Positions 1,299 through 16,588 of a stretch of DNA of 30,263 bases are shown piece by piece. A program made the position numbers and the translations under genes. Positions within the stretch are counted from its first letter, which is position 1; each line of letters starts with the position of its first letter. Source of the DNA: a virus; IMG/VR virus record IMGVR_UViG_3300031566_000251, positions 1 through 30,263 of that record; one strand, written 5' to 3'. The notes under the pieces are model-generated. The model was not told the origin of the DNA. It saw only the letters and a list, made by a program, of their open reading frames with translations, and did no database searches.

Positions 1299-2848
1299 CC
1301 GCACTGAAGACGTACACCCCACCGCTGCCGTCATCGGCCGCATCACATTCCGAACTGTTCGCCCAACGCCCCATCAACATCTCGAACGCCGAAGACCGGG
1401 GATATCTCGCCGGAACCGTCGGCATGGGCAAGGCGGTCAGCGACGATTCATGGAAGAACTACAACCGGATCGGCGAAGTCCGCTACGCCATCTCCCGTTC
1501 GGCGCGCATCGCCGGCTACGGCCAGCTTCGCGGCGAATACATGAGCCGCACCGGAGAAGTGGAGACCGTCGCCGAGAAGGGCATCGTCGCTGACATCGTC
1601 GCCGAGATGTACGGCAAGTTCGGTGGCACTCGCGGCCTCATCGAACGTTTCTACACCCTCATGAAACTCCCCGCCGAGGCATACCCGATCTGGGTGCGCG
1701 AGAACGGCGTCGTGGACGGTATGTGGTTCCTGTCGCCTCACGAGATCGACTCGTCTTCGGTGATCGGCGGCAAAGTCGACGTCTCCAAGCCGGTCAAGTG
1801 GATCACCGGCCGCTACCAAGATCCCAACAGCGGCTCCCAGAACTTCTACCGCACCGTCAACGCCGAAGACTTCATGGGCCGCATCTGGAACCCGTCGAAG
1901 CAGTACACCGACGAAGCCGACACTCCAATGACGGCGATCAACGTATGGTGCGAAATGCTCGACACTCTCACCCAGTCGATCATGGGTCGTCTACGCCAAC
2001 GCTTCGCGCTTGCTGGCCTTCTGCTGGTTCCCAACGAGATCTCCGACGCCGCGATCAACGGCCCTGCCACCCCCGGCCAGTACTCGAACGACAAGGTGAT
2101 GAACTACCTCATCACCATCATGACCCGCAACGTCACCATGCACGACCAGGGGATGTCGCAGATCCCCGCCGTCCTCAAGGGCCCCGCCGACGCGCTTGAC
2201 AAGGTGCGTCACATCATCCTTGACACCCAGATCGCCGAGACGGATATCAAGATTCGCGCCGAGTTGATCAACCGCATCATGGACAGCCTTGACCAGCAGA
2301 AGGCGGCGACCAATGGCGGCGAAGGCACCTCGCACTGGGGGATGTGGGCAGTCTCCGACGAGGAGCGGCGCATCACCGTCCAGCCCGACCTCGAATCCAT
2401 GTGCTTCGGTCTGACGAAGATGATCCTGTGGAAGCGGCTTTCCGAGCGCGGCTGGGATCCCGCCAAGATCCGCCGTTGGCGCGTCGGCTACGACCTGTCA
2501 CAGGCTGCCGTCAAGACCAACGTCGCCGAGGACGCCCGTCAAGCCCATGACCGCGGCCTCGTCAATGGCGACTTTCTGCGCCGCTCGATCGGCGCCACCG
2601 ACAACGACAAGATGTCCAACGAGGAGTACACCCGTTGGGTCGGCGTCAAACTTCAAGATCCGGTCATGGCGTGCTACGGCTTGCAGGGCATTGAGGTAGA
2701 GGCCATGCCTGTGCGAGCATCTACGTCAACACCAGGCCCCAGCGCCGACTCACCCGGCGACCCGACCAAGGTCGCTCCGGGCGTCGGGCAGCCGGGATCC
2801 CCGAGTTCTCGCGACAGCGATGCTCCGAAAGCAGAGGAACCAGGATGA
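1295..2848 (+). CDS. Portal protein
   Basis: This is the probable dodecameric portal: the channel at one capsid vertex through which DNA is packaged and ejected, and the dock for terminase and the head-tail connector. The 517-residue length is normal for siphovirus portals. Typical portal features are an N-terminal region of aromatic and charged segments (SWKNYNRIGEVRYAISRSARI), a middle stretch with FLSPHEID and WNPSKQYTDEADTPM, then LTQSIMGRLRQRFALAGLLLVP before a helical stem region. The tail is Pro/Ser-rich and probably disordered. The GTG start overlaps the previous stop by 4 bases, and the end overlaps the protease by 4 bases (ATGA). Position immediately before a protease and capsid gene supports the call. 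Confidence 0.88.
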   Translation: MTALKTYTPPLPSSAASHSELFAQRPINISNAEDRGYLAGTVGMGKAVSDDSWKNYNRIGEVRYAISRSARIAGYGQLRGEYMSRTGEVETVAEKGIVADIVAEMYGKFGGTRGLIERFYTLMKLPAEAYPIWVRENGVVDGMWFLSPHEIDSSSVIGGKVDVSKPVKWITGRYQDPNSGSQNFYRTVNAEDFMGRIWNPSKQYTDEADTPMTAINVWCEMLDTLTQSIMGRLRQRFALAGLLLVPNEISDAAINGPATPGQYSNDKVMNYLITIMTRNVTMHDQGMSQIPAVLKGPADALDKVRHIILDTQIAETDIKIRAELINRIMDSLDQQKAATNGGEGTSHWGMWAVSDEERRITVQPDLESMCFGLTKMILWKRLSERGWDPAKIRRWRVGYDLSQAAVKTNVAEDARQAHDRGLVNGDFLRRSIGATDNDKMSNEEYTRWVGVKLQDPVMACYGLQGIEVEAMPVRASTSTPGPSADSPGDPTKVAPGVGQPGSPSSRDSDAPKAEEPG

Positions 2849-4305
2849 TGAAGAGAGTGGTCACGTTCGGCCGGCAGCCAGACAAGCCGAAGCACAACTT
2901 CGCGGAGGTCGTCTTCCCCGAGCTGGCGAAACTTGACGCCGGCACCAAGGAAGGGATCGTGTCGCGCATCTTGTCCTCGGACGGCGGCGACACCCGCTCC
3001 CTGCCGCGCACCATCTACTTCCAGAAGCAGCAAGCCGACGGCCACTCCACTGCCGTTGCGGTCGGCGCGATTCACGAGGTCACCATCGACGGCGAAGCCG
3101 GGCTCGCCTCTGGTCGCGGATGGCTGCTCGATTCCGAAGACGGCCGCGACGCCGCCCTCCACATCGCTGGGCAGGCGCTGTTCCACAACTCCGTCGACCT
3201 CGCAGAGGTGAAGGTCGAGATCACCGAGCACGGCGACTTCTGGGAAGACGACTTCAGTGTGGACGTCCTGTTCACCGAATGGAAGATCGGTGCCACCACC
3301 CTCGTTGGCAAACCCGCCTTCGCTGACGCTCACGCGATCACCGAGATCGAGCTGACCGCCGCGATCGAATCCGGCCCACTCACCGTCGACTGCCCTTCAG
3401 TCCAACGCGTCCTCGTCACCGAAACCGACGAAGAGGTTCTCGCGTCCGCAGCCGGCCTCCCGTCATGGGACAGCTTCCATCGCCCCGAGCCGAAGGACCA
3501 CCACAAGATCATCGTCGGCGAACCCGACGAGAACGGCTGGATCCCGGTCTACGGCCATCTGTCGCTGTGGAACACCTGCCATGACGGCATCGAAGGCCGC
3601 TGCACGATCACCCCGCGGCCACGCGACAACTATGCCTCGTTCAACAAGCCATCCGTTCTCACCGACAGGGGACAGGTCGAGGCCGGGCCGATCGCGCTGT
3701 ACGGCGGACACATCCCGCTCCACAAAGCAGCCGACGACCCGGCCAACGCCTGGTGCGACGTCCGTGTCATCGCGGGCGTGCATGGCCCGTGGCTGTCAGG
3801 TGTCGTCCGCCCAGGTGTCGCCGAAGACGACGCCAAGGTGTACGTCGCACGCGCCTCGCGCATTTCCGGCCACTGGAAGGGCGACCGTCTCAAGATGATC
3901 GTGTGCTGCAACGCCGAAGGCTTCGACGTCCCCGGCTCCGGCTTCTCCACGAACGCCGACGGCGAGATCCTCGAACTCATCGCCTCCTACCCGGGATGCG
4001 CCGAGCCCGTCCCTGAGCCCACCGTCGAGTCCGCCGTGGTCTCCACGTCGAACGGGACATTCACCGCGACGAACGTCCCGTCGTATCTGAAGACGATGGA
4101 CCCCCTGACCTCCGAGCAGCAGACCCACCTCTTGGACTGGGTCCGTTCGACGTCAGCGAACAGCTACTCCATCACGACGGCGACGATCACCGAGATCGAA
4201 GTCGACGAGGACGAACTCAGCACCAGCTTCGACGCCGACATCGAGCGCCAGCGCAGAGTCCGGCAGCTCGCCCTACTTGAGCAAGGCAGTTCCGTCCTGC
4301 CATAG
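2845..4305 (+). CDS. Capsid maturation (prohead) protease with actinophage-type C-terminal domain
   Basis: This probably cleaves the scaffold segment of the major capsid protein during head maturation. Residues 1-175 look like an HK97-type prohead protease: a His-Asn-Ser at 114-116 is a candidate catalytic region, and IGATTLVGKPAFADA (148-162) matches the strand at the end of this fold. Residues about 205-365 form a second domain with GHLSLWNTCHDGIEGRC (237-253), GGHIPL, GPWLSGVVRPG and a C-terminal FDVPG, a pattern I know from capsid proteases of many actinobacteriophages. The 486-residue length reflects this fusion; the last 120 residues are low in recognisable features. ATGA overlap couples it to the portal. 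A hairpin terminator follows. Confidence 0.8.
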   Translation: MMKRVVTFGRQPDKPKHNFAEVVFPELAKLDAGTKEGIVSRILSSDGGDTRSLPRTIYFQKQQADGHSTAVAVGAIHEVTIDGEAGLASGRGWLLDSEDGRDAALHIAGQALFHNSVDLAEVKVEITEHGDFWEDDFSVDVLFTEWKIGATTLVGKPAFADAHAITEIELTAAIESGPLTVDCPSVQRVLVTETDEEVLASAAGLPSWDSFHRPEPKDHHKIIVGEPDENGWIPVYGHLSLWNTCHDGIEGRCTITPRPRDNYASFNKPSVLTDRGQVEAGPIALYGGHIPLHKAADDPANAWCDVRVIAGVHGPWLSGVVRPGVAEDDAKVYVARASRISGHWKGDRLKMIVCCNAEGFDVPGSGFSTNADGEILELIASYPGCAEPVPEPTVESAVVSTSNGTFTATNVPSYLKTMDPLTSEQQTHLLDWVRSTSANSYSITTATITEIEVDEDELSTSFDADIERQRRVRQLALLEQGSSVLP

Positions 4306-4338
4306 AGGTCGCGTCCGCCGCCGACCCATAGCTCAAGC

Positions 4339-4371
4339 GAACGCCCCTGAGTCCTCGCCTCGGGGGCGTTC
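4339..4371 (+). terminator. Hairpin terminator after the protease gene
   Basis: GAACGCCCC (4339-4347) pairs with GGGGCGTTC (4363-4371), extended by TGAG/CTCG with one G-T pair, around a 7-base loop. Only a weak T-containing run (ACATTTC) follows, so efficiency is uncertain. It separates portal/protease transcription from the capsid promoter. Confidence 0.7.
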
Positions 4372-4390
4372 ACATTTCACGGGGGAGCCA

Positions 4391-4423
4391 CTTGACTATC
4401 CGCTACCCATCAATGCGAGCATG
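4391..4423 (+). promoter_or_regulatory. Bipartite promoter-like element ahead of the major capsid gene
   Basis: CTTGACTAT (4391-4399), 14 bases, then TGCGAGCATG (4414-4423). The identical bipartite string with the same 14-base gap is found before the major tail gene (17687-17719). The left part contains a consensus-like -35 (TTGACT). The right part could be an extended -10 (TGC-GAGCAT) at a long 19-base spacing, or the site of a different sigma factor. It lies between a terminator and the capsid ribosome binding site, leaving a leader of about 45 bases. Confidence 0.7.
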
Positions 4424-4469
4424 TCGTCGTATTCCCACGTTGATTTGACGCACCACCAGGAGGCGGCGC

Positions 4470-6113
4470 ATGAAGTGGACCAAGATCCCAGAGACCCTCG
4501 CAGGTCTCAATGCCGAGCAGCTTCGCGAACTTGCCGTCGCGCTCCGCGCTGACCTCGATGCCAACTTGGCAGTCGCGGCGACGCCCGAGGACTTCGCCGA
4601 GTACGACTCGTACGCGGCGCGGTTCGCTCGCATCGAAGCGATGGCTCAGACGGCGCTCGCCGGCGAGGCCGCAACAGCCGAAGCAGAGCAGGTAGCCGCT
4701 GAAGCCGCAGCGACGGAAGCCGCCGCAGCCGAAGCCGCCGCAGCCGAGCCCGAGCCCGAGGTCGGCGAGGACGAGGCTGTGGAGCCCGAGGTCGTCGCAT
4801 CGACCCCGGTGGTCACCACGACCGAGGTCGCCACGGTTGCAGAGGTCGCGGTTCCGACCCGCCCGAGCGGCTCGGGATGGTACGCCACCCCCGACGGCGC
4901 CAACGCCATCGCCCAGGAGACCGGCTACCAGTTCGGCTCGATGACCGAACTCGCCGAGGCCGTCAGGCTCCGGGCCGACTCCATCCAGTCCGGCTCGGAC
5001 GTCAAGCACGTCATCGCCCAACAGCGCGGCAACTTCTCCGAGAGCCAAGACCTGTCCAACGACGTGGTCTTCAACCTCCAGAAGTTGCAGGACCAAGAGG
5101 AACTGACGGCCGCCATGTGCGCCCCGCTCACCCCCCTCTACGATCTGTCGTGTGCGAACACGATGCGCCGCCCCGTCGCCAACGGCCTCCCGCAGTTCCG
5201 CCTCCGGGCCGATCGCGGTGGCTTCACCGTCTACCCGTCGCCGTCACTGTCCGACATCACCACCGGCTACGGCCAGTGGACGTCGAGCGATGACTCCGAC
5301 GTCGACGCGCTGAAGACCTGCCAGACGATCACCTGCTCGTCCCCCGTCGAGTACGAGATCTACGGTGTGTACCGCTGCTTGACCGTCAAGCATCTGGTCC
5401 AGATGACGTTCCCCGAGATCGTTGAGGCATACCTCAACCGTCTCGGCGCCGCCTGGGCCCGCTACGCCGAGACCCTCCTGTTGGAGGCGATGGGCAACGG
5501 CTCGACGCAGCTCGCGACCGCCGACCTCGGCTACGGCGGCACGCAAACCGTCCTGTCAACGGTCCTCAACTACCTCGGCCTCTATCAAGAGATCGAGCGT
5601 TGGGACAACGGCATCATGGATGCGTGGATGCCCCGTTGGGTCCTGTACGCCATCAAGACCGACCTGATGCGCCGCCGCCGCACCGATGGCGGCGTCCAGT
5701 TGGTCCCGTCCGATGAGTCGATCAACGCGTTGTTCCGCAACGCCGGCGTCGAGCCTCACTGGTTCATGGACCGTCCGTCGTGGGCCACCCCGGTTCCCGG
5801 CATCGCCGTCAACGGTGTCCTGAACTTCTTCCCACGGTCGGTCGAGATCCTCGTCCACCCGAGGGGCAAGTTCGCTCTGATGGATCGGGGCAACCTGAAC
5901 ATCGGTGTCACCGGCAACAACCAGTACCGGGTCGACGACGACCTGCTTCGGAACCAGTTCCGGTTCTTCTTCGAGTCGTTCGAGGGTGTCATCAACACGA
6001 ACACCTGCCCGGCGCACATCTTGCAGATCGACACGACCTGCTGGAACGGCGTCCAGATCGACGACCAGGTGATGGGCTGCGCCGGCGAAGACGTCATCGG
6101 CGTCGGTTCCTGA
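4470..6113 (+). CDS. Major capsid protein with fused N-terminal scaffold-like domain
   Basis: This is the HK97-type major capsid protein, the building block of the icosahedral shell. The product is 547 residues. Residues 1-62 are helical, 63-130 are Ala/Glu/Val-rich low complexity, and the shell domain appears to begin near 132. No separate scaffold gene is present, so the N-terminal part likely acts as the scaffold and is removed by the upstream protease; the cut is probably somewhere around residue 130, which is inference. The shell part is unusually rich in Cys (MCAPLTPLYDLSC, KTCQTITC, TNTCPAH, TTCW, MGC). A strong AGGAGG (4458-4463) lies 6 bases before the ATG, unlike most genes here. 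It is flanked by its own promoter-like element and terminator. Confidence 0.87.
   Translation: MKWTKIPETLAGLNAEQLRELAVALRADLDANLAVAATPEDFAEYDSYAARFARIEAMAQTALAGEAATAEAEQVAAEAAATEAAAAEAAAAEPEPEVGEDEAVEPEVVASTPVVTTTEVATVAEVAVPTRPSGSGWYATPDGANAIAQETGYQFGSMTELAEAVRLRADSIQSGSDVKHVIAQQRGNFSESQDLSNDVVFNLQKLQDQEELTAAMCAPLTPLYDLSCANTMRRPVANGLPQFRLRADRGGFTVYPSPSLSDITTGYGQWTSSDDSDVDALKTCQTITCSSPVEYEIYGVYRCLTVKHLVQMTFPEIVEAYLNRLGAAWARYAETLLLEAMGNGSTQLATADLGYGGTQTVLSTVLNYLGLYQEIERWDNGIMDAWMPRWVLYAIKTDLMRRRRTDGGVQLVPSDESINALFRNAGVEPHWFMDRPSWATPVPGIAVNGVLNFFPRSVEILVHPRGKFALMDRGNLNIGVTGNNQYRVDDDLLRNQFRFFFESFEGVINTNTCPAHILQIDTTCWNGVQIDDQVMGCAGEDVIGVGS
4716..4745 (+). repeat. Tandem 15-bp repeat in the scaffold-like region of the capsid gene
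   Basis: GAAGCCGCCGCAGCC is repeated twice without a gap (4716-4730, 4731-4745) and followed by a GAGCCC repeat. It encodes an Ala/Glu-rich linker and probably arose by replication slippage. Confidence 0.7.
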
Positions 6114-6135
6114 CCTACTCCAACTCAACTAGCAT

Positions 6136-6173
6136 GAGGCCCGGCTCGGTGAACACCGGGTCGGGCCTCTTTC
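6136..6173 (+). terminator. Terminator after the major capsid gene
   Basis: GAGGCCCG (6136-6143) and CGGGCCTC (6162-6169) form a perfect 8-bp stem. An inner CGGT/ACCG stem (6147-6150, 6155-6158) closes a GAAC tetraloop, and a short T run follows (6170-6173). It ends only 16 bases before the next gene, leaving no room for a promoter downstream, so 6190-8867 probably depends on read-through. Confidence 0.8.
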
Positions 6174-6189
6174 ATTCTCAGGAGCTGAC

Positions 6190-7380
6190 ATGGCCGTAAC
6201 CGGCATCGAGAAGGACATCAATCTTCCCGGCCCGATGGGACGGGAACGCGGGACGCTGCTGTCTGCGATGCAGCCGATCCCACCCGACGAACTCGTCGCC
6301 CGCAACGTGACGCGCGGCTGGTTCGGTGTCGAATGGTTGCCGTGGGGCACCGGGAACATCTCGGTCGATGCGATCGACTGCGATGTCGTCTACGACTTCT
6401 CCGCCCGCGAACTCCCCGACCTCCTGGTGCAACCCGCATTCCTGATGTGGGACGCCCTGAAGTGCTCGACGCTGTCCAGTGAGTCCGAATGGCTTCGCGG
6501 CCGTGTCGTGGACAACCTGAACGTCTACGCCTCCGCTGCGTTCGCTGCCGAGCTGTCAACCGGGACTGCCTCGGGCGGTCTGGCGATCTCCGGTGACGCG
6601 ACGTACACGCCGACGATCATCTCGGCGACTGCGGTCGACGTCGGCCGGGGCATCGCCGAACTCGAAGACCATCTGGCCGATGTGCTCCACGGCGCGATCG
6701 GCATGATCCACCTCACCCCGGGCCTGCTGGCGCTCGCCGTCGGTGACGGCTATGTGGAGTGGCGCGACGGCCAGTACCGCACCCCGTCGGGTCATGTCGT
6801 GGTCGGTGACGCCGGTTTCGATGGCACCGCGACCCCGTTCGGCTCGACCGCCGCCACATCGGCGCAAGCCTGGATCTACGCCACTTCGATGGTGTGGTAC
6901 GCGATCTCCGGGATCAACACGACCGACATCTTGACTGACGACCAGCATGACACCGACATTCTCCACAACCTGAACCGCCCGATCGCCAAGCGCTACGGCC
7001 TGCTCACCTGGGATCCATCGGCGACAGGCGCGATCAAGGTCACGTTCGCTGCGTCGGGGGGCGGCGCGACGACCCCGTTGACGATCTGGGGGTACGCCCC
7101 CGCTGTTGGCGCAATCGCCGCAGCTGAGGCGTTCCAGGGAGTCTCGCTCTACAACTCGCACGCGACCGACGCCGTCCTGATCTACGTCCGATACGGCAAT
7201 GGTGGTGCTTCCACTCCCTACGCTCCCATCGCGATCGCCGCCGGCGAATCCGTGAACTGGTTCCTTGACCCGAGCGCCGGGATTCCGGTCGGCGCTAGCG
7301 GAGTGTACGTCACCGACGAGAGCGTCGGAGCGGCGGCCATCACTGATCTCGTGGGAGTCATCTACACCGGAGCTGCATGA
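6190..7380 (+). CDS. Virion structural protein next to capsid, with C-terminal beta domain
   Basis: This is a 396-residue protein, probably a minor capsid or decoration component. Residues 1-280 resemble a family found directly after capsid genes in actinophages and prophages, with HLTPGLLALAVGDGY, a short RDGQYRTPSGHVVVGDAGF segment and a later AQAWIYATSMVW; this is recalled and not searched. The last 100 residues (VSLYNSHATDAVLIYVRYG, AAGESVNWFL, GIYV-like end) look like a small beta-sandwich of the type appended to surface-exposed phage proteins. AGGAG (6180-6184) sits 5 bases before the ATG. Being just past the capsid terminator, it is probably made in smaller amounts than the capsid protein. 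Confidence 0.65.
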   Translation: MAVTGIEKDINLPGPMGRERGTLLSAMQPIPPDELVARNVTRGWFGVEWLPWGTGNISVDAIDCDVVYDFSARELPDLLVQPAFLMWDALKCSTLSSESEWLRGRVVDNLNVYASAAFAAELSTGTASGGLAISGDATYTPTIISATAVDVGRGIAELEDHLADVLHGAIGMIHLTPGLLALAVGDGYVEWRDGQYRTPSGHVVVGDAGFDGTATPFGSTAATSAQAWIYATSMVWYAISGINTTDILTDDQHDTDILHNLNRPIAKRYGLLTWDPSATGAIKVTFAASGGGATTPLTIWGYAPAVGAIAAAEAFQGVSLYNSHATDAVLIYVRYGNGGASTPYAPIAIAAGESVNWFLDPSAGIPVGASGVYVTDESVGAAAITDLVGVIYTGAA

Positions 7381-7381
7381 C

Positions 7382-7459
7382 ATGGAGGCAACGGTTTCGG
7401 GGCTACTGCAAGGGTCTAGCGGGACCGGTCTGCGTCCCGGCTCGCAAGGTTCTGGGCTA
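7382..7459 (+). repeat. Duplicated N-terminal anchor module, copy 1
   Basis: The first 26 codons match 8151-8228 with about eight base differences by eye. Similarity stops abruptly after the shared GSQGSGL residues. The short segment was duplicated and joined to unrelated domains. Confidence 0.85.
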
Positions 7460-8149
7460 GCTGTGGTGCAGCCGGTGGATTGGCACACACTGTTCTGGGC
7501 CGGTGGCCCGCTGATGCAAGCCGAGGGGTATGCGTCAAGTGATCCGATCACTTCCTGGCCGAACGAAACTGGCGAGTCGAGCTACACGACCGCTGTCGGC
7601 CCGCCAACGTACCAGACCGGGCAGTTCGGAATCTGGGGGAAGCCCTGCATCCAGTTCCTCGGTTCTGCCTATCTGCGGACCCCTGCATTTCTGGTGAACC
7701 CGACGTACCCGATCACCCGGATCATGGTCGTCGATATAGCCGCAACGCCTACCGGCGAGGACTTCCTCACTGACGGAATCACGAACACCGGGCGCAACCG
7801 GATCATGCAGTCCTCCAGTATGGGCGGTTCGTGGTCGATCGGGGCCAGCAGTGGATCGTCGGCGGCCGGGGTCGGGCCGTTCACGGGGTCGTTCGGAGTT
7901 CGCGCGGTATTTGACGGGTCGACTGGGCCGGACACGCTCTACTTGAACGGGGCGTACAAGGTCGGTGCCACCGACAGCGGCTCAGAAACACTCACCGGGC
8001 TCACGCTCGCCGCCGACTACGCGGGAGCGAACAACTTCAGCAACTTCAAGGTCGCCTTCGACGCAATCTACGAGGGGGACATCATCACCGATCCCGGTTG
8101 GCCAGACCTCCAGGCGTGGATTCTCGACCAGTACAATGTGGTGATTTGA
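7382..8149 (+). CDS. Probable head or tail fibre protein with LamG/ConA-like domain
   Basis: This is a 255-residue protein starting at ATG 7382, 1 base after the previous stop and with GGAG upstream. Residues 1-26 form a Gly/Ser-rich peptide nearly identical to the start of the next gene product. The rest reads as a jelly-roll of the concanavalin A/LamG type seen in phage fibres: a QFLGSAYLRTP strand, VVDIAA, FDGSTGPDTLYLNGAYKVG, then a FKVAFDAIYEG strand and a closing helix LQAWILDQYNVV. Such domains usually bind sugars or surfaces. Neighbouring the capsid genes, it is more likely a head fibre or decoration than part of the tail tip, but position alone does not settle this. Confidence 0.65.
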   Translation: MEATVSGLLQGSSGTGLRPGSQGSGLAVVQPVDWHTLFWAGGPLMQAEGYASSDPITSWPNETGESSYTTAVGPPTYQTGQFGIWGKPCIQFLGSAYLRTPAFLVNPTYPITRIMVVDIAATPTGEDFLTDGITNTGRNRIMQSSSMGGSWSIGASSGSSAAGVGPFTGSFGVRAVFDGSTGPDTLYLNGAYKVGATDSGSETLTGLTLAADYAGANNFSNFKVAFDAIYEGDIITDPGWPDLQAWILDQYNVVI

Positions 8150-8150
8150 C

Positions 8151-8228
8151 ATGAAGGCAACGGTTTCGGGGCTACTGCAAGGGTCGCACGGGACCGGGCT
8201 GCGTCCCGGCTCCCAAGGCTCCGGGCTC
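8151..8228 (+). repeat. Duplicated N-terminal anchor module, copy 2
   Basis: This is the second copy of the 78-base module at 7382-7459, again covering the first 26 codons of a gene. Confidence 0.85.
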
Positions 8229-8867
8229 GTTCCGAGTGCGGGAGGCGGCGCGCCCATCTGGGTTGGGGAGGCACTCGGGGCGTCGTCCAGCGCCACGGCA
8301 CTGTCGGTGAATCTTGGTGCGTTCTCTGCGGGCCAGTTCGCTGTTGTCTGGTGCATGTACAAGACGACTGGCACTTGGCCTGCGAAGACTGGGTGGACGC
8401 TTACGACTGGCACCACGGTAGACAACCGTGCGTACGGCATCTACTCTAAGGTGCTTGAGGCTGGGGACATTGGCGTGGTGCCGTTCCCAGGATTCTCGTT
8501 GCAGCGGGTGGCGAACGCTCAGGTGTTCAGTGGTGCGACTGGATGGTCGAACAGGAACGCTGGCACTTCGTCGTACAACGTCACCTGGGCGGCGGGCAAC
8601 CTTGCTGCCGCTGCGTTGGCTGTTCCTGCGGCGGCGATCGTGTTCTCGATCCGTACGGTGCGGTCGAGCCACTCCCTCCACGCCACGTTGCATCAGGGCT
8701 TCACGCCTGGCACTGCGATATCGTCGGGTTCGGACGGCAACGCCGCCTGCATCTCTGTGCTGGGTGCGCACCTGGATGTCGCTGATCCTTCTGGCGGTCA
8801 GACGGGGCCATCCTTCTCTGCGGCGACGCTCGCTCAGTCGTCTGCTGACATGTTCTGGGTGACGTGA
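8151..8867 (+). CDS. Probable fibre/decoration protein sharing its N-terminal anchor with the preceding gene
   Basis: This is a 238-residue protein. Residues 1-26 (MKATVSGLLQGS, then GTGLRPGSQGSGL) repeat the start of the preceding protein. Residues 35-238 are unrelated to it and look like the beta-sandwich found in phage fibre proteins and adhesins, with a WPAKTGWTL turn, AYGIYSKVLEAGDIGVVPF and long Ala/Ser/Thr-rich strands. The start lies 1 base after the previous stop; GGTGAT 5 bases upstream can act as a partial Shine-Dalgarno. A TACAAT at 8132-8137 could add internal transcription. It ends the capsid-proximal group; a 46-base gap and a new promoter follow. Confidence 0.62.
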   Translation: MKATVSGLLQGSHGTGLRPGSQGSGLVPSAGGGAPIWVGEALGASSSATALSVNLGAFSAGQFAVVWCMYKTTGTWPAKTGWTLTTGTTVDNRAYGIYSKVLEAGDIGVVPFPGFSLQRVANAQVFSGATGWSNRNAGTSSYNVTWAAGNLAAAALAVPAAAIVFSIRTVRSSHSLHATLHQGFTPGTAISSGSDGNAACISVLGAHLDVADPSGGQTGPSFSAATLAQSSADMFWVT

Positions 8868-8901
8868 GGGGGCTGGTAACGCTCCAACACCGAGCGTGTG
8901 A

Positions 8902-8913: not shown

Positions 8914-9921
8914 ATGCACGTCGTCCAGCTCGGAAACCGGGTCCCGCCTTTCAGCACAGAGAACGACCTCCATCACGCGATGGTCGAAGGCAACGGCTGG
9001 GACGTCCGCTTCATCCAAGAAGGCGACAGCACGGCCTTGCTCCAGTTCATCACCGACCTCCAAGCCGGGTTCGAGCGGCCCGACTTCATCTTGTGGACCT
9101 CGACTCGCGACCTCGCCAACCAGTGGGGTCACGAACTCCAATGGAAGCTGCTCGCCGAAGCCCGCCGCCACAACATCCCCGTCGTCGCTTACCACCTCGA
9201 CAGATGGATGGGGCTGAAACGCCAGAACGCGATGCCCACCGAACCGTACTTCCGGGTCGATCTGCTCGCCACCGCCGACGGCGCCCATCAAGACGAATGG
9301 GCCAAAGCCGACGTCAACCATCACTGGATGCTCCCCGGCGTCTCCGAGCGCTGGTGCCAGCCCGGCACGTACCGCGAAGAACTGGCGACCGACATCGTGT
9401 TCGTCGGCTCCTGGCAGGACTATGGTCATCGTGAATGGCGCCATCGTGGTGAACTCGTCGCCTGGCTCCAGAAGACCTACGGGGATCGGGTCGCGTTCTA
9501 CCCGAAGCAAGGCGAGCACGCTGTCCGCGGCCTGGAGTTAAACGACGTGTACTGGTCAGCGAAGGTTGTCGTCGGCGACTCGTGTCTCGCCCCCAAAGTC
9601 GACGGTTCTCCGATGACCAACTACTGCTCGGACCGCGTCCCCGAGACCCTCGGCCGCGGCGGCTACCTCCTGCACCCGTCAGTGGAAGGCATCAACGACT
9701 TCCACGATCCGTTCTGGGATGCTGATTGCTTGTGTGATTGGTGGGAGATGGGCGACTGGGGCCAGCTCCGAACTCGGATCGACACCGAACTCAGCACAGG
9801 TGATTTCAGTTCCTCCGAGGAGCGCCTGCGTCGGATCGAACTCATCCGCGAGAACCACACCTACACGGTGCGGATGCGACAGCTTGCCGAACTGCTCATC
9901 GACAAAGGGATGCTGCCATGA
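8914..9921 (+). CDS. Glycosyltransferase, CgeB-like (GT-B fold)
   Basis: This is a 335-residue probable sugar transferase. The layout fits the CgeB-like group: an N-terminal Rossmann-like half (HVVQLGNRVPPFS; FILWTSTRDL), a middle strand TDIVFVGSWQDYGHREWRHRG of the type that marks the start of the nucleotide-sugar half, then SDRVPETLGRGGYLLHPSVEGI, matching the conserved donor-site region in which a cell surface or spore-coat transferase holds its nucleotide sugar. Donor and acceptor are unknown. It is the first gene of the cassette; the start is leaderless-type and the stop overlaps the next ATG by 4 bases. Its position within virion genes suggests the acceptor is a virion protein or a glycan on one. 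Confidence 0.72.
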   Translation: MHVVQLGNRVPPFSTENDLHHAMVEGNGWDVRFIQEGDSTALLQFITDLQAGFERPDFILWTSTRDLANQWGHELQWKLLAEARRHNIPVVAYHLDRWMGLKRQNAMPTEPYFRVDLLATADGAHQDEWAKADVNHHWMLPGVSERWCQPGTYREELATDIVFVGSWQDYGHREWRHRGELVAWLQKTYGDRVAFYPKQGEHAVRGLELNDVYWSAKVVVGDSCLAPKVDGSPMTNYCSDRVPETLGRGGYLLHPSVEGINDFHDPFWDADCLCDWWEMGDWGQLRTRIDTELSTGDFSSSEERLRRIELIRENHTYTVRMRQLAELLIDKGMLP

Positions 9922-10301
9922 CTGGCGAGATGTGGGTCATCGAATCCGGGGACTACTCGTACTATCAAGTTCGAGCAATCTGCGCGACAGAGGAGGAGGC
10001 CCGAGCCGCCTGCGAGCGAGCAAACAGAATGCTGGAGGGCTCCCACGAAGATCGCTGGGAGTGCTCTCCCCGTCCGATCATTGAAGCCGAGGATGTGTCC
10101 TTGCTGCATTGGGCGCAAGCGCGAGCCGACGGGACCCACATCTCTGGGTACACCAGAGTCGGTTTCCGCCAAGACGAAGGGGTTGTGGCGTGGGATTCGT
10201 CCGGGGCGTGGGTCACCACTGAGGCTTCGACGCCGGAGCGTGCCGCCAAGATCGCACAGGATCGTCAGGCCCAACTCAAAGCGGAAGCGATGTTGCCATG
10301 A
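9918..10301 (+). CDS. Small hypothetical protein in the glycan cassette
   Basis: This is a 127-residue protein with no family I can assign confidently. The first 35 residues (WVIESGDYSYYQVRAICATEEEARAACERAN) resemble short phage domains that start with a strand, then an ATEEEA helix. The rest is a mixed alpha/beta segment with a WDSSGAWVTT strand and an Ala/Lys-rich C-terminal helix. It overlaps both neighbours by 4 bases (ATGA), so it is translated as part of the cassette, but nothing links it to sugar chemistry except location. Confidence 0.6.
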   Translation: MTGEMWVIESGDYSYYQVRAICATEEEARAACERANRMLEGSHEDRWECSPRPIIEAEDVSLLHWAQARADGTHISGYTRVGFRQDEGVVAWDSSGAWVTTEASTPERAAKIAQDRQAQLKAEAMLP

Positions 10302-11128
10302 CCGGTGGAATGACCGACTGGCCGGAGATCACCTGCCAGCGAGGCCACGACCATCACGAGACGCGAGAGTTCACCATCGTGTTCAGCGGCCCCACCGCGT
10401 ACCGCGACCTCCCATCCATACCGCGGCGCTTCTCCGACACCTTCGAGATGGAGGTGTGGGACACGGAGAAGTACCCGGTCGACGGGGGGCCGTGGTGCCC
10501 GGCCCATGACGCCGTGTCCGAGACGCTCCTCTCCCTCGGCGTCTGGGATCCAGCCGAGACAATCCTGATGCTGGAGGCGTTCCGGTACTGCGACACGTTC
10601 ATCGACATCGGCGCCCAGCTCGGCTGGTACTCGATCCTTGCGCTGCGCTCCCAGATGAACGTAGTCGCGTTCGAGGCCGACCCGATCGTCTGCGACGTGC
10701 TGGAACGAAACATGGCTCGCCACGCTGAGTTTCTCGGGCACTACTCGGTGCAGGCCGAGCGGGTTGGGCCGCACTCCTCGATCCCATTCCCAGAGACGGA
10801 CGACCGGCTCGTGGTGAAGATCGACATCGAAGGAGCGGAAGCCGACGCGGTCAAGATGCTGGAGCCGTTGATGCCACAGATCGACTTCATGCTGATCGAA
10901 ATCTCCCCGTGCTTCAACGACACCTACCCCGACTTGGTCATCGACCTGATCCGGCGTGGCTTCAACGCCTACCTCGTCCCGCAGAAATCCATTCCTCCGG
11001 CACGCCTTGAAATCCTCCCCGACGACCTCGTCGACTGGGACATCGGATCAAACTTCGACGACATCAAGAAACTCGTCGCCTCCTGGGATCAGAGAAATCT
11101 CCTGTTCGTTCGGGATGGCGCGTGGTGA
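10298..11128 (+). CDS. FkbM-family SAM-dependent methyltransferase
   Basis: This is a 276-residue protein predicted to methylate a hydroxyl group, typically on a sugar. After a roughly 95-residue N-terminal extension, motif I FIDIGAQLGWYS is at 101-112, the acidic ribose-binding residue lies in FEADP (125-129), and KIDIEGAEADAVKML (174-188) is the signature of FkbM methyltransferases. These features together make the family secure, though the substrate is not known. It is one of two FkbM-like genes in the cassette (the other at 11718), so more than one hydroxyl or sugar may be capped. It overlaps both neighbours, with ATGA at 10298 and GTGA at 11125. Confidence 0.82.
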   Translation: MTGGMTDWPEITCQRGHDHHETREFTIVFSGPTAYRDLPSIPRRFSDTFEMEVWDTEKYPVDGGPWCPAHDAVSETLLSLGVWDPAETILMLEAFRYCDTFIDIGAQLGWYSILALRSQMNVVAFEADPIVCDVLERNMARHAEFLGHYSVQAERVGPHSSIPFPETDDRLVVKIDIEGAEADAVKMLEPLMPQIDFMLIEISPCFNDTYPDLVIDLIRRGFNAYLVPQKSIPPARLEILPDDLVDWDIGSNFDDIKKLVASWDQRNLLFVRDGAW

Positions 11129-11721
11129 GCGCCTCCGAACGGTTCTGGTGGGACAGCCTGGAAGGCAATGAGATCGACGACAACACGGCGGGATATCCGC
11201 CGTACGACGTTACCCAAACCGCCAGCTTCATCCTTGACGCGATCCGTCCGATCTCTGGATTCGCGCGGCTTCTCGACCTCGGCTGCGGGAAGGGGAGGCT
11301 CACAGCCGAGGTCGCTCAACATGTTCCATCCGAGGTAGAAATCGTCGGCGTCGACATCTCACCCAAGATGATCGACCTGGCGAAACGCTGGCCGGACAGG
11401 AACGTCCTCTACCGCGTCGGCGACGGCCGGAACCTGCCGGAGCGTTGCGGCATGTTCGACGGCGCGTGGTCGGTCGCGATGTTCCAACACATTCCTCATG
11501 AAGCGAAACTGGGCTACCTGTTCGAGGTGTGCGATCATCTTCGGTCCGGTGCCACATTCGTGTTCACCGTCGCCGTCGGCGACGAGGACATGTTCCTGAA
11601 CCACCAACTCACCGAAGACGATCTCACCGAACTGATCTCCTGGATGTCGGTACTCTTCGACCGCATTGTCGAGCATCCGGTCGACGAGAACGGCTGGACG
11701 TGGATCGAGGCAACCAAATGA
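11125..11721 (+). CDS. Class I SAM-dependent methyltransferase
   Basis: This is a 198-residue methyltransferase with motif I LLDLGCGKG (49-57), GVDISPKM (75-82) and a VGDGRNLPE segment (about 95) that normally packs on the adenine, followed by FDGAWSVAMFQHI (motif IV-like). It is of the UbiE/type-11 style rather than FkbM. The GTG at 11125 is chosen because it gives the 4-base GTGA overlap seen throughout; a GTG at 11122 would add one residue. Substrate unknown; sugar or a glycan precursor is the likeliest given the flanking genes. Confidence 0.8.
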   Translation: MSASERFWWDSLEGNEIDDNTAGYPPYDVTQTASFILDAIRPISGFARLLDLGCGKGRLTAEVAQHVPSEVEIVGVDISPKMIDLAKRWPDRNVLYRVGDGRNLPERCGMFDGAWSVAMFQHIPHEAKLGYLFEVCDHLRSGATFVFTVAVGDEDMFLNHQLTEDDLTELISWMSVLFDRIVEHPVDENGWTWIEATK

Positions 11722-12422
11722 CACCCGTCACCATCAACCAACGCTGGACCCTCCTGCTCCCCGAGCACCGCGACCGCGGCGAATGGTGGGACAACTGGGA
11801 GAAGGAGCGCCTCGCCTCCATGAGCGACCAGCTCACCCCACTCCTCGGAGAGGTCGTCTACTACGCCGGCGCAGAGCAGGGCGACATGCCCGCACTGCTC
11901 ACCTCATGGGGATGCGACACCGTCCTCGTCGAACCGGTAGCCAGAGTCTGGCCGAACATGCGCGCCATCTACGAAGCGAACAACCTGAAGGACCCCCTCG
12001 CCTGCTTCGTCGGCTTCGCCGGAGCAGCAGACCGCGGCAACCCTGGCATCGACGAAGGCTGGCCGCCCGAAGCGTCCGGCGACGTCACCGATGTCGAAGG
12101 CTTCGCGAACCTGTGGGAGCGCGACGACCTCCCGATCATCGCGCTCGACTCCCTCCCCGACGCCGGCATCGACCCGCCATCTGCGATCTCCATCGACGTC
12201 GAAGGCTCCGAACTTGAGGTGCTGCGAGGCGCCACCGGCTGCCTGCTACTTCATCGTCCACTCGTGTGGGTGTCGATCCACCCGACCTTCATGGCCGACC
12301 TGTACGACCAGCACCCCGACGAGATCTTCTCGCTCATGGCGCGCCACGGCTACCGCGGCCGGATGCTCGCCGACTTGCACGAATCACATTGGCTCTTCTG
12401 GCCCGAGGAGTACCCGCGGTGA
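11718..12422 (+). CDS. Second FkbM-like methyltransferase, motif I degenerate
   Basis: This is a 234-residue protein. SIDVEGSELEVLRG (158-171) is a good FkbM signature and VEPV (71-74) matches the ribose-binding strand. Motif I is unusual: YYAGAEQGDMPALL (48-61) in place of the usual D-x-G-A-x-x-G, so the first acidic residue is missing. It may still bind SAM through the later Glu, or be impaired. It shares little sequence with the FkbM protein at 10298 beyond the motifs, so the two are distinct enzymes, not a recent duplication. Overlaps on both sides are 4 bases. Confidence 0.72.
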   Translation: MTPVTINQRWTLLLPEHRDRGEWWDNWEKERLASMSDQLTPLLGEVVYYAGAEQGDMPALLTSWGCDTVLVEPVARVWPNMRAIYEANNLKDPLACFVGFAGAADRGNPGIDEGWPPEASGDVTDVEGFANLWERDDLPIIALDSLPDAGIDPPSAISIDVEGSELEVLRGATGCLLLHRPLVWVSIHPTFMADLYDQHPDEIFSLMARHGYRGRMLADLHESHWLFWPEEYPR

Positions 12423-14182
12423 CCGAGGTTCTGGTTTCGTGGTTGTCGTATTGCGAGGACAACCCAGCCCGAGGGAGATGGGATCAAGCCTTCCTGGACC
12501 GGATGCTCGCCGGAGAGGAATGGCGGGTGCCGTCCGGCTTCCGGTTCAAGTCGGTCCCGTGGAACCCGGAGGACGGGCAGGGCCGCGTCATCGTGTTCCC
12601 GTGCGGCCACTACATCGAGCACGGCGAACGTCACACCGTCGCCTGGAAACTCCTGCGCGACCTGGAGAAGCTGCCTTGGGCGGTCTTGATCGCCACTTCC
12701 GACGAAGCCGACACGTTCGAGTGGAACAAGTTCGACCTCCCATCTCACGTCAAGCTGTGGGTGCAGTCGCCGCGGCCCGAGTCCACCTACCCGGAGGGGA
12801 CGTTCTTCCATCCGGTCGGTTCCCCGACCTCTGCGCGCGTCTGGGGTGACCCGGGCGACAAGCCGACCGACGTGTTCTTCTCCGGCCAGGTCAACCACGA
12901 GCGCCGTGAGGACTGCGTCACCGAGCTGTTCAAGCTGAAGATGGAACGCCCCGACCTCCAGATCGAAGTGCTCCCCACTGAAGGCTTCACGCAGGGCCTT
13001 CCACCCGACCAGTATCGGGACCACATGCGCGCAGCGAAGATCGTCCCATGCCCGGCTGGGATCTGCTCACAGGACACGTTCCGCTTCTGGGAAGCCCTGG
13101 AGGCCGGAGCGATGCCGATCGCCGACTCCCTGCGCCCCGACGGGACCGGTGAAGGATTCTGGGACCTCTTCCGACGTGCTGGATTCGGATACGCCCCCGC
13201 GATCGCCGAGATCCACGACTGGTCGAATGTGGGATCCACGGCGGAGTGGATGCTGAATGACCCAACGCTCCCTGCCGACATGTCCGCCCAATGGCAGCAG
13301 TACAAGCGCTCGATCGCCTATCGGCTCGACGATGACCTGTGGGACGTCATGGTGACCCGTCCCGCCAGCGAGTTCGGTCCGGCAGATCAGATCACCGTCG
13401 TCATCGTCACCTCACCAACGCCGTCGCACCCTTCGACTACGATCATCGACGAGACGATCACGTCGATTCAGGAACGCCTCCCCGGCGCCGAGATCCACAT
13501 CTTGGCCGACGGCGTCCGCAAGGAACAGCAAGACCGCGCCGCCGACTACTGGGAGTATGTAGCACGGTTGTGCTACAAGGTGAACGCCGACCCGACGATC
13601 GTCCCCTGGGCCCACGCCGAACACCTCCATCAGGCCGTCATGTTCCGCCACGCCCTGAACCGGATCAAGACCCCGTACGTCATGTTCGTCGAGCACGACA
13701 CCCCGCTCGTCGGCGAGATCGACTTCGATCACGTCCTCGCCGTCATGGAACACGACGAGATCAACTCGATGCGGTTCCTCCACGAAACCCATGTCCCCAT
13801 CGGATCGGAGGGCCTGTTCCTGGAGCGCAAAGGCACCGATGAACAGCCGTACCTGCGCACCATCCAGTGGTCCCAGCGTCCGCACGTCGCCCGAACCGAC
13901 TGGTATCGGGACCTGATCGCTTCCTACTTCGGCTGGGAATCGCGCACGATGATCGAAGACGTGGCTCATGGGCTAGTCCAGAACAACCACACCGGGAACC
14001 GGACGGCGCTACGCAAGGGCTGGAACAAGTGGAAGCTGGCAGTCTGGGCGCCACCCGGCGACAGCATCAAGTTCTCCACCCACCTTGACGGCCGCGCCGG
14101 AGACAGAAAGTACCCGATGAAAATTTCTTACGACGCCGACCGCCCCGAAGGTGCCCCCGAGGAGGGATGGCGGGATGCGTAG
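12419..14182 (+). CDS. Two-domain glycosyltransferase (exostosin-like plus GT2/GT-A-like)
   Basis: This is a 587-residue probable bifunctional enzyme. Residues 1-300 resemble exostosin-type GT-B transferases, with RVIVFPCGHYIEHGE, DVFFSGQVNHERRED (151-165) and CPAGICSQDTFRFWEALEAGAMPIA (211-235), the last being the nucleotide-sugar site. Residues about 322-587 look like a GT-A glycosyltransferase: ITVVIVTSPTPSHPS (324-338), a strand EIHILADG, then YVMFVEHDTPLVGEID (420-435), where E-H-D takes the place of the metal-binding DXD. Two active sites in one chain suggest that two sugars are added in succession. The GTG at 12419 gives a 4-base overlap; earlier in-frame ATGs lie inside the preceding gene. 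It is the largest gene in the cassette. Confidence 0.72.
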   Translation: MTEVLVSWLSYCEDNPARGRWDQAFLDRMLAGEEWRVPSGFRFKSVPWNPEDGQGRVIVFPCGHYIEHGERHTVAWKLLRDLEKLPWAVLIATSDEADTFEWNKFDLPSHVKLWVQSPRPESTYPEGTFFHPVGSPTSARVWGDPGDKPTDVFFSGQVNHERREDCVTELFKLKMERPDLQIEVLPTEGFTQGLPPDQYRDHMRAAKIVPCPAGICSQDTFRFWEALEAGAMPIADSLRPDGTGEGFWDLFRRAGFGYAPAIAEIHDWSNVGSTAEWMLNDPTLPADMSAQWQQYKRSIAYRLDDDLWDVMVTRPASEFGPADQITVVIVTSPTPSHPSTTIIDETITSIQERLPGAEIHILADGVRKEQQDRAADYWEYVARLCYKVNADPTIVPWAHAEHLHQAVMFRHALNRIKTPYVMFVEHDTPLVGEIDFDHVLAVMEHDEINSMRFLHETHVPIGSEGLFLERKGTDEQPYLRTIQWSQRPHVARTDWYRDLIASYFGWESRTMIEDVAHGLVQNNHTGNRTALRKGWNKWKLAVWAPPGDSIKFSTHLDGRAGDRKYPMKISYDADRPEGAPEEGWRDA

Positions 14183-14197
14183 CAGGAGAAGAAACCG

Positions 14198-14407
14198 ATG
14201 ATCGGATTCGCTATGTTCCGCAGATACGGCTCACTCGACGAGGTCTGGATCACCGTCGGCGAGGTGCAAGAAGTCTACGAGGGCGGGGGCGGGACGACGA
14301 TCCGCCATCGCGGCGGGTCCTGCCAGGTCTCCGAAGACGTCGACACTGTTCTCAAACGCCTGTTGGAGACAGGCATCCAAATGGCGAAGTTCGAGGAGTC
14401 CCAATGA
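14198..14407 (+). CDS. Small hypothetical protein
   Basis: This is a 69-residue protein, strand-rich in the first half (MFRRYGSLDEVWITVGEVQEVYE) with a GGGG turn and a C-terminal helix. It resembles short phage proteins that begin F-x-x-x-x-x-DEVWI and contain HRGGSCQV, but I cannot name a function. It is the only cassette gene with a clear Shine-Dalgarno (AGGAG, 14184-14188, 9 bases before ATG), fitting the 15-base gap after the large transferase. An eight-codon reading frame (14175-14201) spans this gap and ends in an ATGA overlap with this start. Confidence 0.6.
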   Translation: MIGFAMFRRYGSLDEVWITVGEVQEVYEGGGGTTIRHRGGSCQVSEDVDTVLKRLLETGIQMAKFEESQ

Positions 14408-14622
14408 AGAAGGAATGCAAGAATCCGACCTGCACCCGATCCGCAACAGCGACGTACTGCTCGCGGCAATGCCAGATCGCGATGCGTAACGTGTCCGCTG
14501 GTCGTCAGATCCCGGACATGTGGGTGAGCATGGATATGTGGTGGGCGCTCACAGGGATGGCCGAGATCCACAACATGTCGGTCTCCGACTACTGCCTCAG
14601 CCAGATCGAGGTCGGGCTGTGA
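14404..14622 (+). CDS. Small zinc-finger-like protein
   Basis: This is a 72-residue protein whose first 23 residues hold Cys at 5, 10, 19 and 23 (CKNPTC, then YCSRQC), a compact four-Cys zinc knuckle like those in small phage and bacterial proteins. The rest is a helix-rich segment. ATGA overlap with the previous gene and GTGA overlap with the next tie it to the cassette. Function unknown; a protein-protein or nucleic-acid contact role is possible. Confidence 0.62.
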   Translation: MKKECKNPTCTRSATATYCSRQCQIAMRNVSAGRQIPDMWVSMDMWWALTGMAEIHNMSVSDYCLSQIEVGL

Positions 14623-15647
14623 GCCTCGGGATCGTGGCGAGGTGTGACTCAAGGGGGATCGCGTACCAGTCCTGGGAGGCCGTCAACGCACTCCAGCCCG
14701 ACAAGATCCTGCTGGTGCTGCTCAACGATCGCAAGTGGCCCGAAGACCCGGCCCGCTTCGGTCGCCACAACGTCACCTACGTCGACTCCAGTCTCGGGCA
14801 TCGGATGCTGGACGAGAAGAAGGTCCGCAAGTTCCTGGACGGTCTTGACACCGTGTTCGCGATCGAAACACTCTACGACTGGGACATGGCCGACTGGGCC
14901 CGCGAAGCCGGCTGCCGCACGATCGTCCAAGGCAACCCCGAGTTCTACAACCACCACCGCCACCCCGAGCGCCCCCAGCCCGACGAATGGGTGTGGCCGA
15001 CCGAATGGATGCGAAGCCACGATGATCTACCCGAAGGCGATCTACTCCCTGTTCCAGCCCCCGCCTGGCTGGACACCGACACTCCGCATCCGGAAGCGGA
15101 AGTCCTCCGGGTCCTCCACGTCGCCGGCCACCGAGCCCTCGGCGACCGCAACGGCACCGACCTGTTCTTCGAGTCCCTCGCCCTGATCGGCACCCGCGTC
15201 CATGTCACCGTCATCGGCCAGGACGGCCAGCTCCCGAACGTCAAGGTCGGACGCAACGTCACGATCGAAACGAACCCGAAGGGCGTCAAGGACCGCTGGG
15301 ATCTCTACAAGAACCAGCATGTCGCCGTGCTTCCCCGTCGCTACGGCGGGCTTTGCCTCCCAGCGACCGAAGCGTGCGCGCGCGGTGTCGTGCCGATGAT
15401 GCCTGATGTCTTGGAGAACAGCTTGTGGCCGATCCTCCCACTGCCCGCCCGTTCCGGTCGTCTCCAGCGGGTCCCGTTCGGTGTCGTGCCGACCTGGGCG
15501 ATCCGGCCGAACGCGATCGCCCACGAGATCGACAAACTGAACCGGCATCGCGAACTCCTCGTCGAAGCCCAACGCAAAGCGCTCGACTGGGCCGACGACA
15601 ACTCGTGGGAGTCATGGGAGCCCGCCTACCGGGGGGTCCTGGGATGA
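14619..15647 (+). CDS. Glycosyltransferase, GT-B fold (GT4-like)
   Basis: This is a 342-residue probable sugar transferase. The N-terminal domain contains LGIVARCDSRGIAYQSWEAV and a Rossmann-like layout. The C-terminal domain starts at VLRVLHVAGHRALGDRNGTD (about 160-180), which is the usual opening of the donor-binding half of family 4 enzymes, followed by VTVIGQDG and VAVLPRRYGGLCLPATEACARGVVP (about 230-255), the E-x7-E-like donor-site region in which Ala/Cys/Gly surround the nucleotide. GTG start by 4-base overlap. Sugar and acceptor are unknown. Confidence 0.75.
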   Translation: MSLGIVARCDSRGIAYQSWEAVNALQPDKILLVLLNDRKWPEDPARFGRHNVTYVDSSLGHRMLDEKKVRKFLDGLDTVFAIETLYDWDMADWAREAGCRTIVQGNPEFYNHHRHPERPQPDEWVWPTEWMRSHDDLPEGDLLPVPAPAWLDTDTPHPEAEVLRVLHVAGHRALGDRNGTDLFFESLALIGTRVHVTVIGQDGQLPNVKVGRNVTIETNPKGVKDRWDLYKNQHVAVLPRRYGGLCLPATEACARGVVPMMPDVLENSLWPILPLPARSGRLQRVPFGVVPTWAIRPNAIAHEIDKLNRHRELLVEAQRKALDWADDNSWESWEPAYRGVLG

Positions 15648-16579
15648 AGATCCATGCAGTCGGATCCTTGCCGCACTACCGCGATCACGTCGAAGCCACC
15701 TGGCAGCATCTCCCGGACGCCCTGAAAGGTGAGCAGTCGTGGGGCCGCGGGGCCTCTGCTCCCAGAAGTGCTGACCCCCGCGACCTTGTGATGGTTGCTG
15801 GGTATTACGACGTCGACCGGGCCCGCGGTCACAGCGTGGTCTATGTCGAGCACGGCGCCGGGCAGTCCTACTACTCGGAGAACGGCAAGCCGCACCCCGC
15901 CTACCACGGCTCGGAGCACCCGGACAACGTTGTCGTCTACCTGTCGCCGAATCAGAAGGTCGCCGACTCATGGGATCGCCCTGCCTACGCCGTCGGCGCG
16001 CCCGTCTGTGACCCGTACCCGTTGATCACCGACAACCAGAGGCCAGTCGTCGCCATCACCTTCCACTGGGACTGCACGCTGTTCCCGGAGACCCGTTCCG
16101 CGCTCGACCACTACCAGAAACATCTCGGCCGCCTCGTCCGGTTCTTGCGCGAGCAAGGGTTCGATGTCCTCGGACACCACCACCCCCGCGACCCGCGCCT
16201 GCCCATCATCTGGCGCAACCTCCAGGTTCGCCCGGCCACCGTCCACGAGGTTCGCCGGTCCGCCGACATCCTGGTCGTCGACAACAGCTCCCTCGCCTAC
16301 GAGATGCTGTACCTCAACCGCTCCGTCGTCACCCTCAACGCCCCCTGGTATCGACGTGAGGTCGAACACGGCCTCCGCTTCTGGGAACACGTCCCCGGCC
16401 AAGCCGTAGATGAACCAGAAGAACTCTTCGATATCGACTGGCAGTCATTTGTCGCCACCCCCGGGATGCCGCCGATGTCAGCAGTCCCAGCGCTCGCCGC
16501 GTACGGCAACGCGATGTCTGACGGCGGCGACGGGATTCGCGCTGCGGCGAGCGTGACCGCGTTCGTTGCAGGGATGTAG
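15644..16579 (+). CDS. Probable CDP-glycerol/polyol-phosphate transferase-like GT-B enzyme
   Basis: This is a 311-residue protein. VVYVEHGAGQSY (65-76) recalls the H-G-x motif of the N-terminal half of teichoic-acid-type polymerases (TagF/TagB family), and SADILVVDNSSLAYEMLYLNRSVVTL (206-231) closely follows their donor-site pattern T-D-x-S-S-x-x-x-E-x-x-x-x-x-x-P-V. It is shorter than full polymerases, so a single-addition enzyme is more likely than a polymerase. If correct, the cassette attaches a glycerol- or ribitol-phosphate, or similar group, to the glycan. A capsular-polysaccharide or other GT-B enzyme is the alternative. The stop codon TAG (16577-16579) forms the first half of the next gene's -10 box. 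Confidence 0.6.
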   Translation: MKIHAVGSLPHYRDHVEATWQHLPDALKGEQSWGRGASAPRSADPRDLVMVAGYYDVDRARGHSVVYVEHGAGQSYYSENGKPHPAYHGSEHPDNVVVYLSPNQKVADSWDRPAYAVGAPVCDPYPLITDNQRPVVAITFHWDCTLFPETRSALDHYQKHLGRLVRFLREQGFDVLGHHHPRDPRLPIIWRNLQVRPATVHEVRRSADILVVDNSSLAYEMLYLNRSVVTLNAPWYRREVEHGLRFWEHVPGQAVDEPEELFDIDWQSFVATPGMPPMSAVPALAAYGNAMSDGGDGIRAAASVTAFVAGM

Positions 16580-16588
16580 TCTCCAAAT
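16577..16588 (+). promoter_or_regulatory. Leaderless-type promoter built on a stop codon, ahead of the connector gene
   Basis: TAGTCT (16577-16582) ends 6 bases before the ATG at 16589. Its TAG is the stop of the preceding gene. GTGACC at 16553-16558, 18 bases upstream, is a fair -35. No Shine-Dalgarno is present. Confidence 0.65.

Follow-up and report, generated by a model that had tools for sequence, protein, structure and literature searches.

The window analysed here, a virus record of 30,263 bases taken as a whole, contains two adjacent genes that begin with nearly the same 26 codons and then encode unrelated proteins. Comparison with related genomes shows that both genes, A (7382-8149) and B (8151-8867), belong to an insert with defined edges, and that they sit in a slot between a second capsid gene and a glycosyltransferase-like gene where the gene content turns over among relatives. 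It appears slightly more probable than the converse that A and B code for accessory virion proteins which dock to the particle by a common N-terminal tag. The label of surface proteins, used for both in the first-pass annotation, would follow from gene position.

The capsid genes, tag copies, gene bodies, joints, insert and glycosyltransferase-like gene described below are on the plus strand. Matches to PHROG profiles place the portal gene at 1295, the head-tail adaptor at 16589 and the major tail protein at 17757. The major capsid protein (4470-6113; phrog_777, 2.4e-40) has relatives in Rosebush-type phages and was our bait in the search for related loci. It is followed by the capsid-2 gene (6190-7380), which consists of a gp16-type core (6190-7050) and a C-terminal extension of 109 residues (7051-7377). 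The core has no direct PHROG match and is assigned to phrog_779 only through its relatives in loci L014 and L016. An identical stop/start joint, TGACATG, connects capsid-2 to gene A (7378-7384) and gene A to gene B (8147-8153). The right border of the slot is the glycosyltransferase-like gene (8914-9921), whose match to PF13524 (0.0004) is below Pfam's cut-off and which has homologs in relatives.

The two gene starts had been correctly recognized at 7382 and 8151, and the estimate, made by eye, of about 90% identity over the first 78 bases proved accurate. The tag copies, A (7382-7459) and B (8151-8228), agree at 69 of 78 positions (88.5%) without gaps from the ATG (BLASTN: 89.6% over 77 nt, E 3.6e-23), and at the protein level at 24 of 26, differing in residue 2 (E/K) and residue 13 (S/H). 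For comparison, when the 31 listed gene starts of the window are paired in all 465 ways, the next-best 78-nt match is 38/78. The similarity does stop after codon 26, as claimed: the best other pair of 26-mers between the bodies (37,370 pairs) has 10 of 26 residues in common. It also begins abruptly, since the 40 bases upstream of the two ATGs match at only 14 positions, besides the common TGAC right before each ATG. The tag itself can be written as M(E/K)ATVS, two copies of GLxxGSxG(T/S) and a terminal GL. This internal repeat with its 9-residue unit (7 of 11 residues identical at shift 9) is unexpected in shuffled sequences (p 0.0004 and 0.001, for peptide boundaries of our own choice).

The closest relative found is L120, a genome contig from an Acidimicrobiia MAG, with an 81% identical capsid protein. 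Its alignment with the window, at 77%, covers 2708-7049 and resumes at 8898. What L120 lacks is thus about 1.85 kb (7050-8897), and there the end of capsid-2 is followed by the glycosyltransferase. The insert comprises the 109-residue extension of capsid-2 together with the tagged genes A and B. A and B were probably acquired as a single insert together with the extension, in the slot that separates capsid-2 from the glycosylation cassette. Where the window protein has its extension, the capsid-2 homolog from SM23 (L009:5959-7008) ends in a collagen-like tail.

To see how this position varies, we considered relatives collected in two scans with the capsid protein (80 and 35 loci, 7 in common) and L120. 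The 35 loci of the second scan and L120 make up the close family of 36. Genes lying between the gp16-type gene and the glycosyltransferase or adaptor, and absent or different in relatives, were regarded as occupants of an accessory slot; A and B are such genes. The slot is readable in 26 loci, where both the stop codon of gp16 and sufficient DNA beyond it are visible; L017, L092, L102, L103, L110, L112, L115, L117, L118 and L119, where gp16 or the downstream DNA is cut off or unseen, were left out of the count. The slot is empty in 16 of the 26 and holds other accessory genes in 10. Where it is empty, the next gene is either the glycosyltransferase (L011, L012, L013, L016, L095, L096, L101, L104, L105, L106 and L120, the profile matches being weak in L095 and L101, and L096 being assigned by near-identity to L095) or the adaptor (L107, L108, L109, L114 and L116). 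The filled slots are those of L014, L015, L093, L094, L097, L098, L099, L100, L111 and L113. When near-duplicates are counted once, 13 lineages with an empty and 8 with a filled slot remain; L111 is kept separate because its slot content differs. The slot directly after the gp16-type gene is thus filled differently or empty in relatives.

The occupants of filled slots are heterogeneous. The L014 protein matches Mtd_N (PF18454, 3.2e-12), and the L097 slot has a GDSL-lipase protein with PHROG matches to tail (1.5e-32), virion structural (3.3e-22) and head decoration (3.2e-6) proteins. L094 encodes a collagen repeat, below Pfam's cut-off, the L113 protein is collagen-like by eye, and the remaining filled slots have weak or no family matches. 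In an exploratory comparison with a hand-picked gene list and some starts chosen by us, slot genes are richer in Gly at their starts (mean fraction 0.125 in 27 genes versus 0.061 in 391 others, p 4.5e-4). As a separate observation, the L097 slot (5638-8614) combines the GDSL/SGNH lipase protein, which has a structural C-terminal part, with a GH5 cellulase-like protein.

The bodies of A (7460-8149) and B (8229-8867) are unrelated to each other and could not be assigned to families. The descriptions "LamG-like" for A and "beta-sandwich" for B, both made by eye, were not confirmed by any search. The whole A protein has no LamG/concanavalin-like or other match in Pfam or PHROGs up to E 1, and neither body matches anything there up to E 10. 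For both proteins, searches of NCBIfam (one row at E 0.23, far under its cut-off) and of PDB sequences gave nothing significant, and Pfam models of Ig-like domains and of Mtd_N did not match. Comparison of the window bodies with 17 slot or relative proteins by hhalign produced no match, and the BLASTP similarity of A to the C-terminal region of the L097 slot protein (E 0.34) is not significant. AlphaFold models, computed from the single sequence without an alignment, have a mean pLDDT of 31 and are unusable for fold assignment.

The shared start was originally interpreted as a plug-in module, a peptide attaching different display domains to one site on the particle. The slot, its turnover and, as described below, a swap that retains the gene start agree with this; the searches for the peptide elsewhere do not. 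In the collections searched, the peptide was never found outside this pair, an outcome originally named as one that would refute the module. A DNA-pattern search of viral_contigs returned three stretches, none with the tag at a plausible gene start, and a looser pattern, which recovers both window copies as a control, returned no matches. An alignment of the two tags found no relative in viral_contigs or genome_contigs. No further tag motif is present at any gene start of loci L006-L090 and L092-L120; the scan of the newer loci gave a single minus-strand chance match, in L097. Relatives of either whole protein were found in none of the 86 records related through the capsid protein, although, as the search tool itself warns, an empty answer without a known positive is little proof. 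Likewise, tblastn detected no relatives in phages, nor of the B body in plasmids, with a low-complexity filter that may mask the peptide. Judged by these sequence searches, the absence of the tag elsewhere argues against a widely used module, but leaves room for a tag confined to this phage.

The codon-based gene caller trims the tag off gene A and places the start of gene B too late. Because of this, searches for pairs of proteins with a common N-terminus were also run on plain ORFs, where repeat-rich and antisense pairs were disregarded. In favour of the docking reading, two non-adjacent genes of the distant relative L047 (6509-7054 and 13159-13740) have a common N-terminus of 44 residues (64%) and unrelated bodies. 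Against it, no second pair of this kind was found within a locus among the 29 loci L092-L120.

A natural exchange in the slot is directly visible in two relatives, L100 and L111. Both flanks are about 98% identical, while capsid-2 (gp16) is only 59% identical at the amino acid level and the slot genes have unrelated bodies of 152 and 257 residues. Directly ahead of the slot gene, 60 nt agree at 95%, and the gene itself opens with 21 exactly matching nt (MATGALP); only the first 7-11 or so codons and the DNA just upstream are common to the two slot genes. Identity of about 98% returns some 100 bp ahead of the glycosyltransferase. In these relatives, therefore, bodies were exchanged with the gp16/slot-gene joint and a short start retained, which is what had been proposed for recombination at a common start, and the differences in capsid-2 and in the slot gene form a single block. 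However, since the common start in L111 is only about 11 residues long, the exchange is silent on the need for 26 residues and reveals neither the length nor the role of the peptide in the window.

The same exchange also bears on the main rival of a docking tag, a recombination scar without a docking role. One 5' end would have been copied when the second gene joined the slot, and any translatable start would do. The L100/L111 pair, in which the exchanged DNA ends at a comparable short patch around the gene start, is consistent with this, as is the confinement of the tag to this phage. So is codon usage. Relative to windows of the training genes, synonymous codon choice falls in the lowest 0.2% for tag A, 3% for tag B and 0.03% for body B, compared with 6.6% for body A and 20% for the capsid-2 extension; these percentiles reflect synonymous choice only, whereas an earlier score mixed in amino acid composition. 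Tag A and body B are thus atypical of this genome in synonymous codon usage. On the other hand, a scar does not readily explain why the two genes become similar precisely from the ATG onward, and the internal repeat of 9 residues points to a structured role of the peptide. Moreover, the changes between the copies are mostly synonymous: 6 of 23.5 synonymous sites differ (dS 0.255, dN 0.055, dN/dS about 0.2; Fisher p 0.02 for synonymous versus amino acid changes). The pattern, which rests on nine changes in all, favours selection on the peptide. We therefore regard a scar as unlikely, although it is the strongest of the competing explanations. As to the age of the copy, duplication or gene conversion had been proposed as recent, and this is only partly right: a copying event fits, but because dS (about 0.26) exceeds dN (about 0.055), the tag looks like an older copy under peptide selection.

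The distribution of synonymous differences, none in codons 1-11 and 6 in codons 12-26 (Fisher p 0.05), raises another interpretation. The first dozen codons might set initiation at the coupled TGACATG start, and the protein sequence would then be incidental; the identical joints also speak for this. Yet codons 12-26 retain the peptide, with one amino acid change, despite the drift of the DNA, and RNA structure at either start is unremarkable (z 1.15 for both). Such an expression leader is accordingly quite improbable.

If the peptide docks, the particle site has to be considered. Attachment to the tail or neck would preserve the same architecture, and it is favoured by matches of several slot genes in relatives to PHROGs of tail fibres or tails. 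Because slot genes carry PHROG names of both head and tail proteins, we keep this placement in consideration, at a low probability close to that of a scar. Against it, A and B directly follow capsid-2, an extra capsid-2 domain is fused in the same insert, and capsid-2 changes together with the slot gene in L100/L111. In addition, gp17 of Rosebush (cluster B mycobacteriophages), found by mass spectrometry, has been proposed as a decoration protein above hexamers, according to the accessible text of the report (PMC7150772). Its gene immediately follows the gp16-type gene and is the second one downstream of the related major capsid protein gene, the position of A and B in the window. The Godines gene order agrees with that of Rosebush, and Godines gp17 belongs to phrog_970 (1.3e-68). 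Rosebush gp17 differs in being one protein with no common tag, and neither A nor B matches the gp17 family/phrog_970 in sequence.

Anchor-plus-display proteins are known from T5 pb10, T4 Hoc and Sf14 gp20, which, like the proposed docking proteins, have the anchor at one end and displayed beta domain(s) at the other. Their anchors are folded domains of about 60 to 118 residues, as far as the available text of the sources goes (PMC5292684, PMC7602432, PMC11821841). In pb10, the anchor is reported as more conserved than the display domain, and construct 1-77 as a folded capsid-binding domain of five helices (PMC5292684, accessible portion); in Sf14 gp20, this domain comprises the first 118 residues (PMC11821841, accessible portion). 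In contrast, the only part common to the window proteins that could serve as such an end-located domain is the Gly/Ser-rich peptide of 26 residues, and an anchor shared by two adjacent genes is not described for pb10, Hoc or Sf14 gp20 in those portions. A precedent for short N-terminal arms as capsid contacts is P74-26 gp87/P23-45 gp88; a flexible N-terminal segment becomes ordered upon capsid binding (PMC7602432, accessible portion). Those proteins are trimers of the beta-tulip group, and the same portion of the source does not describe a common arm on unrelated bodies. Mtd_N is similar in being a short N-terminal module before a differing body, with one such protein in the L014 slot. A narrow check of open-access literature revealed no description of adjacent genes with so short a common anchor.

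Taken together with docking as the preferred reading, the tag would be a flexible Gly/Ser-rich N-terminal arm with an ATVS lead and two GLxxGSxG[ST] units. By docking to a single type of particle site, most probably located on the capsid, the arm would present two different C-terminal domains at equivalent positions. The conserved start may double as a joint for homologous recombination, and bodies could therefore be exchanged with the anchor and translation start kept. A more ambitious proposal, which we put forward tentatively and consider rather doubtful as a whole, is that phages of this lineage bring several unrelated domains from a single hot-swap slot into one capsid site by means of an N-terminal docking tag that is very short and transferable, being made of two 9-residue GLxxGSxG[ST] units. 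The tag coding sequence would be the recombination joint, and a third domain, encoded in the same insert, would be displayed by fusion to capsid-2. If the tag docks, a peptide of 26 residues would suffice to attach unrelated domains to a phage particle, whereas pb10 and Sf14 gp20 use folded capsid-binding domains of much greater length. Whether or not it docks, the survey points to one slot by the gp16-type gene as a place of gain, loss and swap of accessory genes in uncultured phages of this capsid family. The exchange between the otherwise near-identical genomes of L100 and L111 makes the idea of an anchor and joint testable.

The region downstream of the slot (8914-16579) is a cassette of glycosyltransferase-, FkbM- and methyltransferase-like genes located between capsid-2 and the head-tail adaptor; resembling cassettes are present in L011, L014, L016, L099 and L111. 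A glycosyltransferase/FkbM-like cassette immediately downstream, and the abundance of Ser, Thr and Gly in the tag, could mean that the tag is a glycosylation acceptor, marking both proteins for the neighbouring enzymes. We consider this the least probable of the explanations discussed: the cassette occurs without the tag in L011, L012, L013, L016 and L120. As five relatives carry it in this way, the cassette does not need the tag, and a cassette dependent on the tag was set aside.

Beside the slot of L014 (IMGVR_UViG_3300044994_000109), positions 13134-16901 encode a sulfotransferase (Pfam 9.5e-20), an APS kinase (9.9e-54), a PAPS-reductase-domain protein (2.7e-42; CysD-like by eye) and an EF-Tu-type GTPase (1.3e-43; CysN-like by eye). 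Apparently a set for sulfate activation, these genes adjoin the display gene as well as a fusion of glycosyltransferase and FkbM, a hint that glycans of the virion may be sulfated. Elsewhere in the window, a small gene in the gap between the adaptor and the major tail protein (17323-17691) is HNH-endonuclease-like by eye, with no Pfam match. Downstream of the tail genes, 28463-29539 encodes an LVIVD-repeat protein (Pfam 2.5e-37) that also matches the choice-of-anchor B model, under that model's cut-off, and has a low synonymous codon score.
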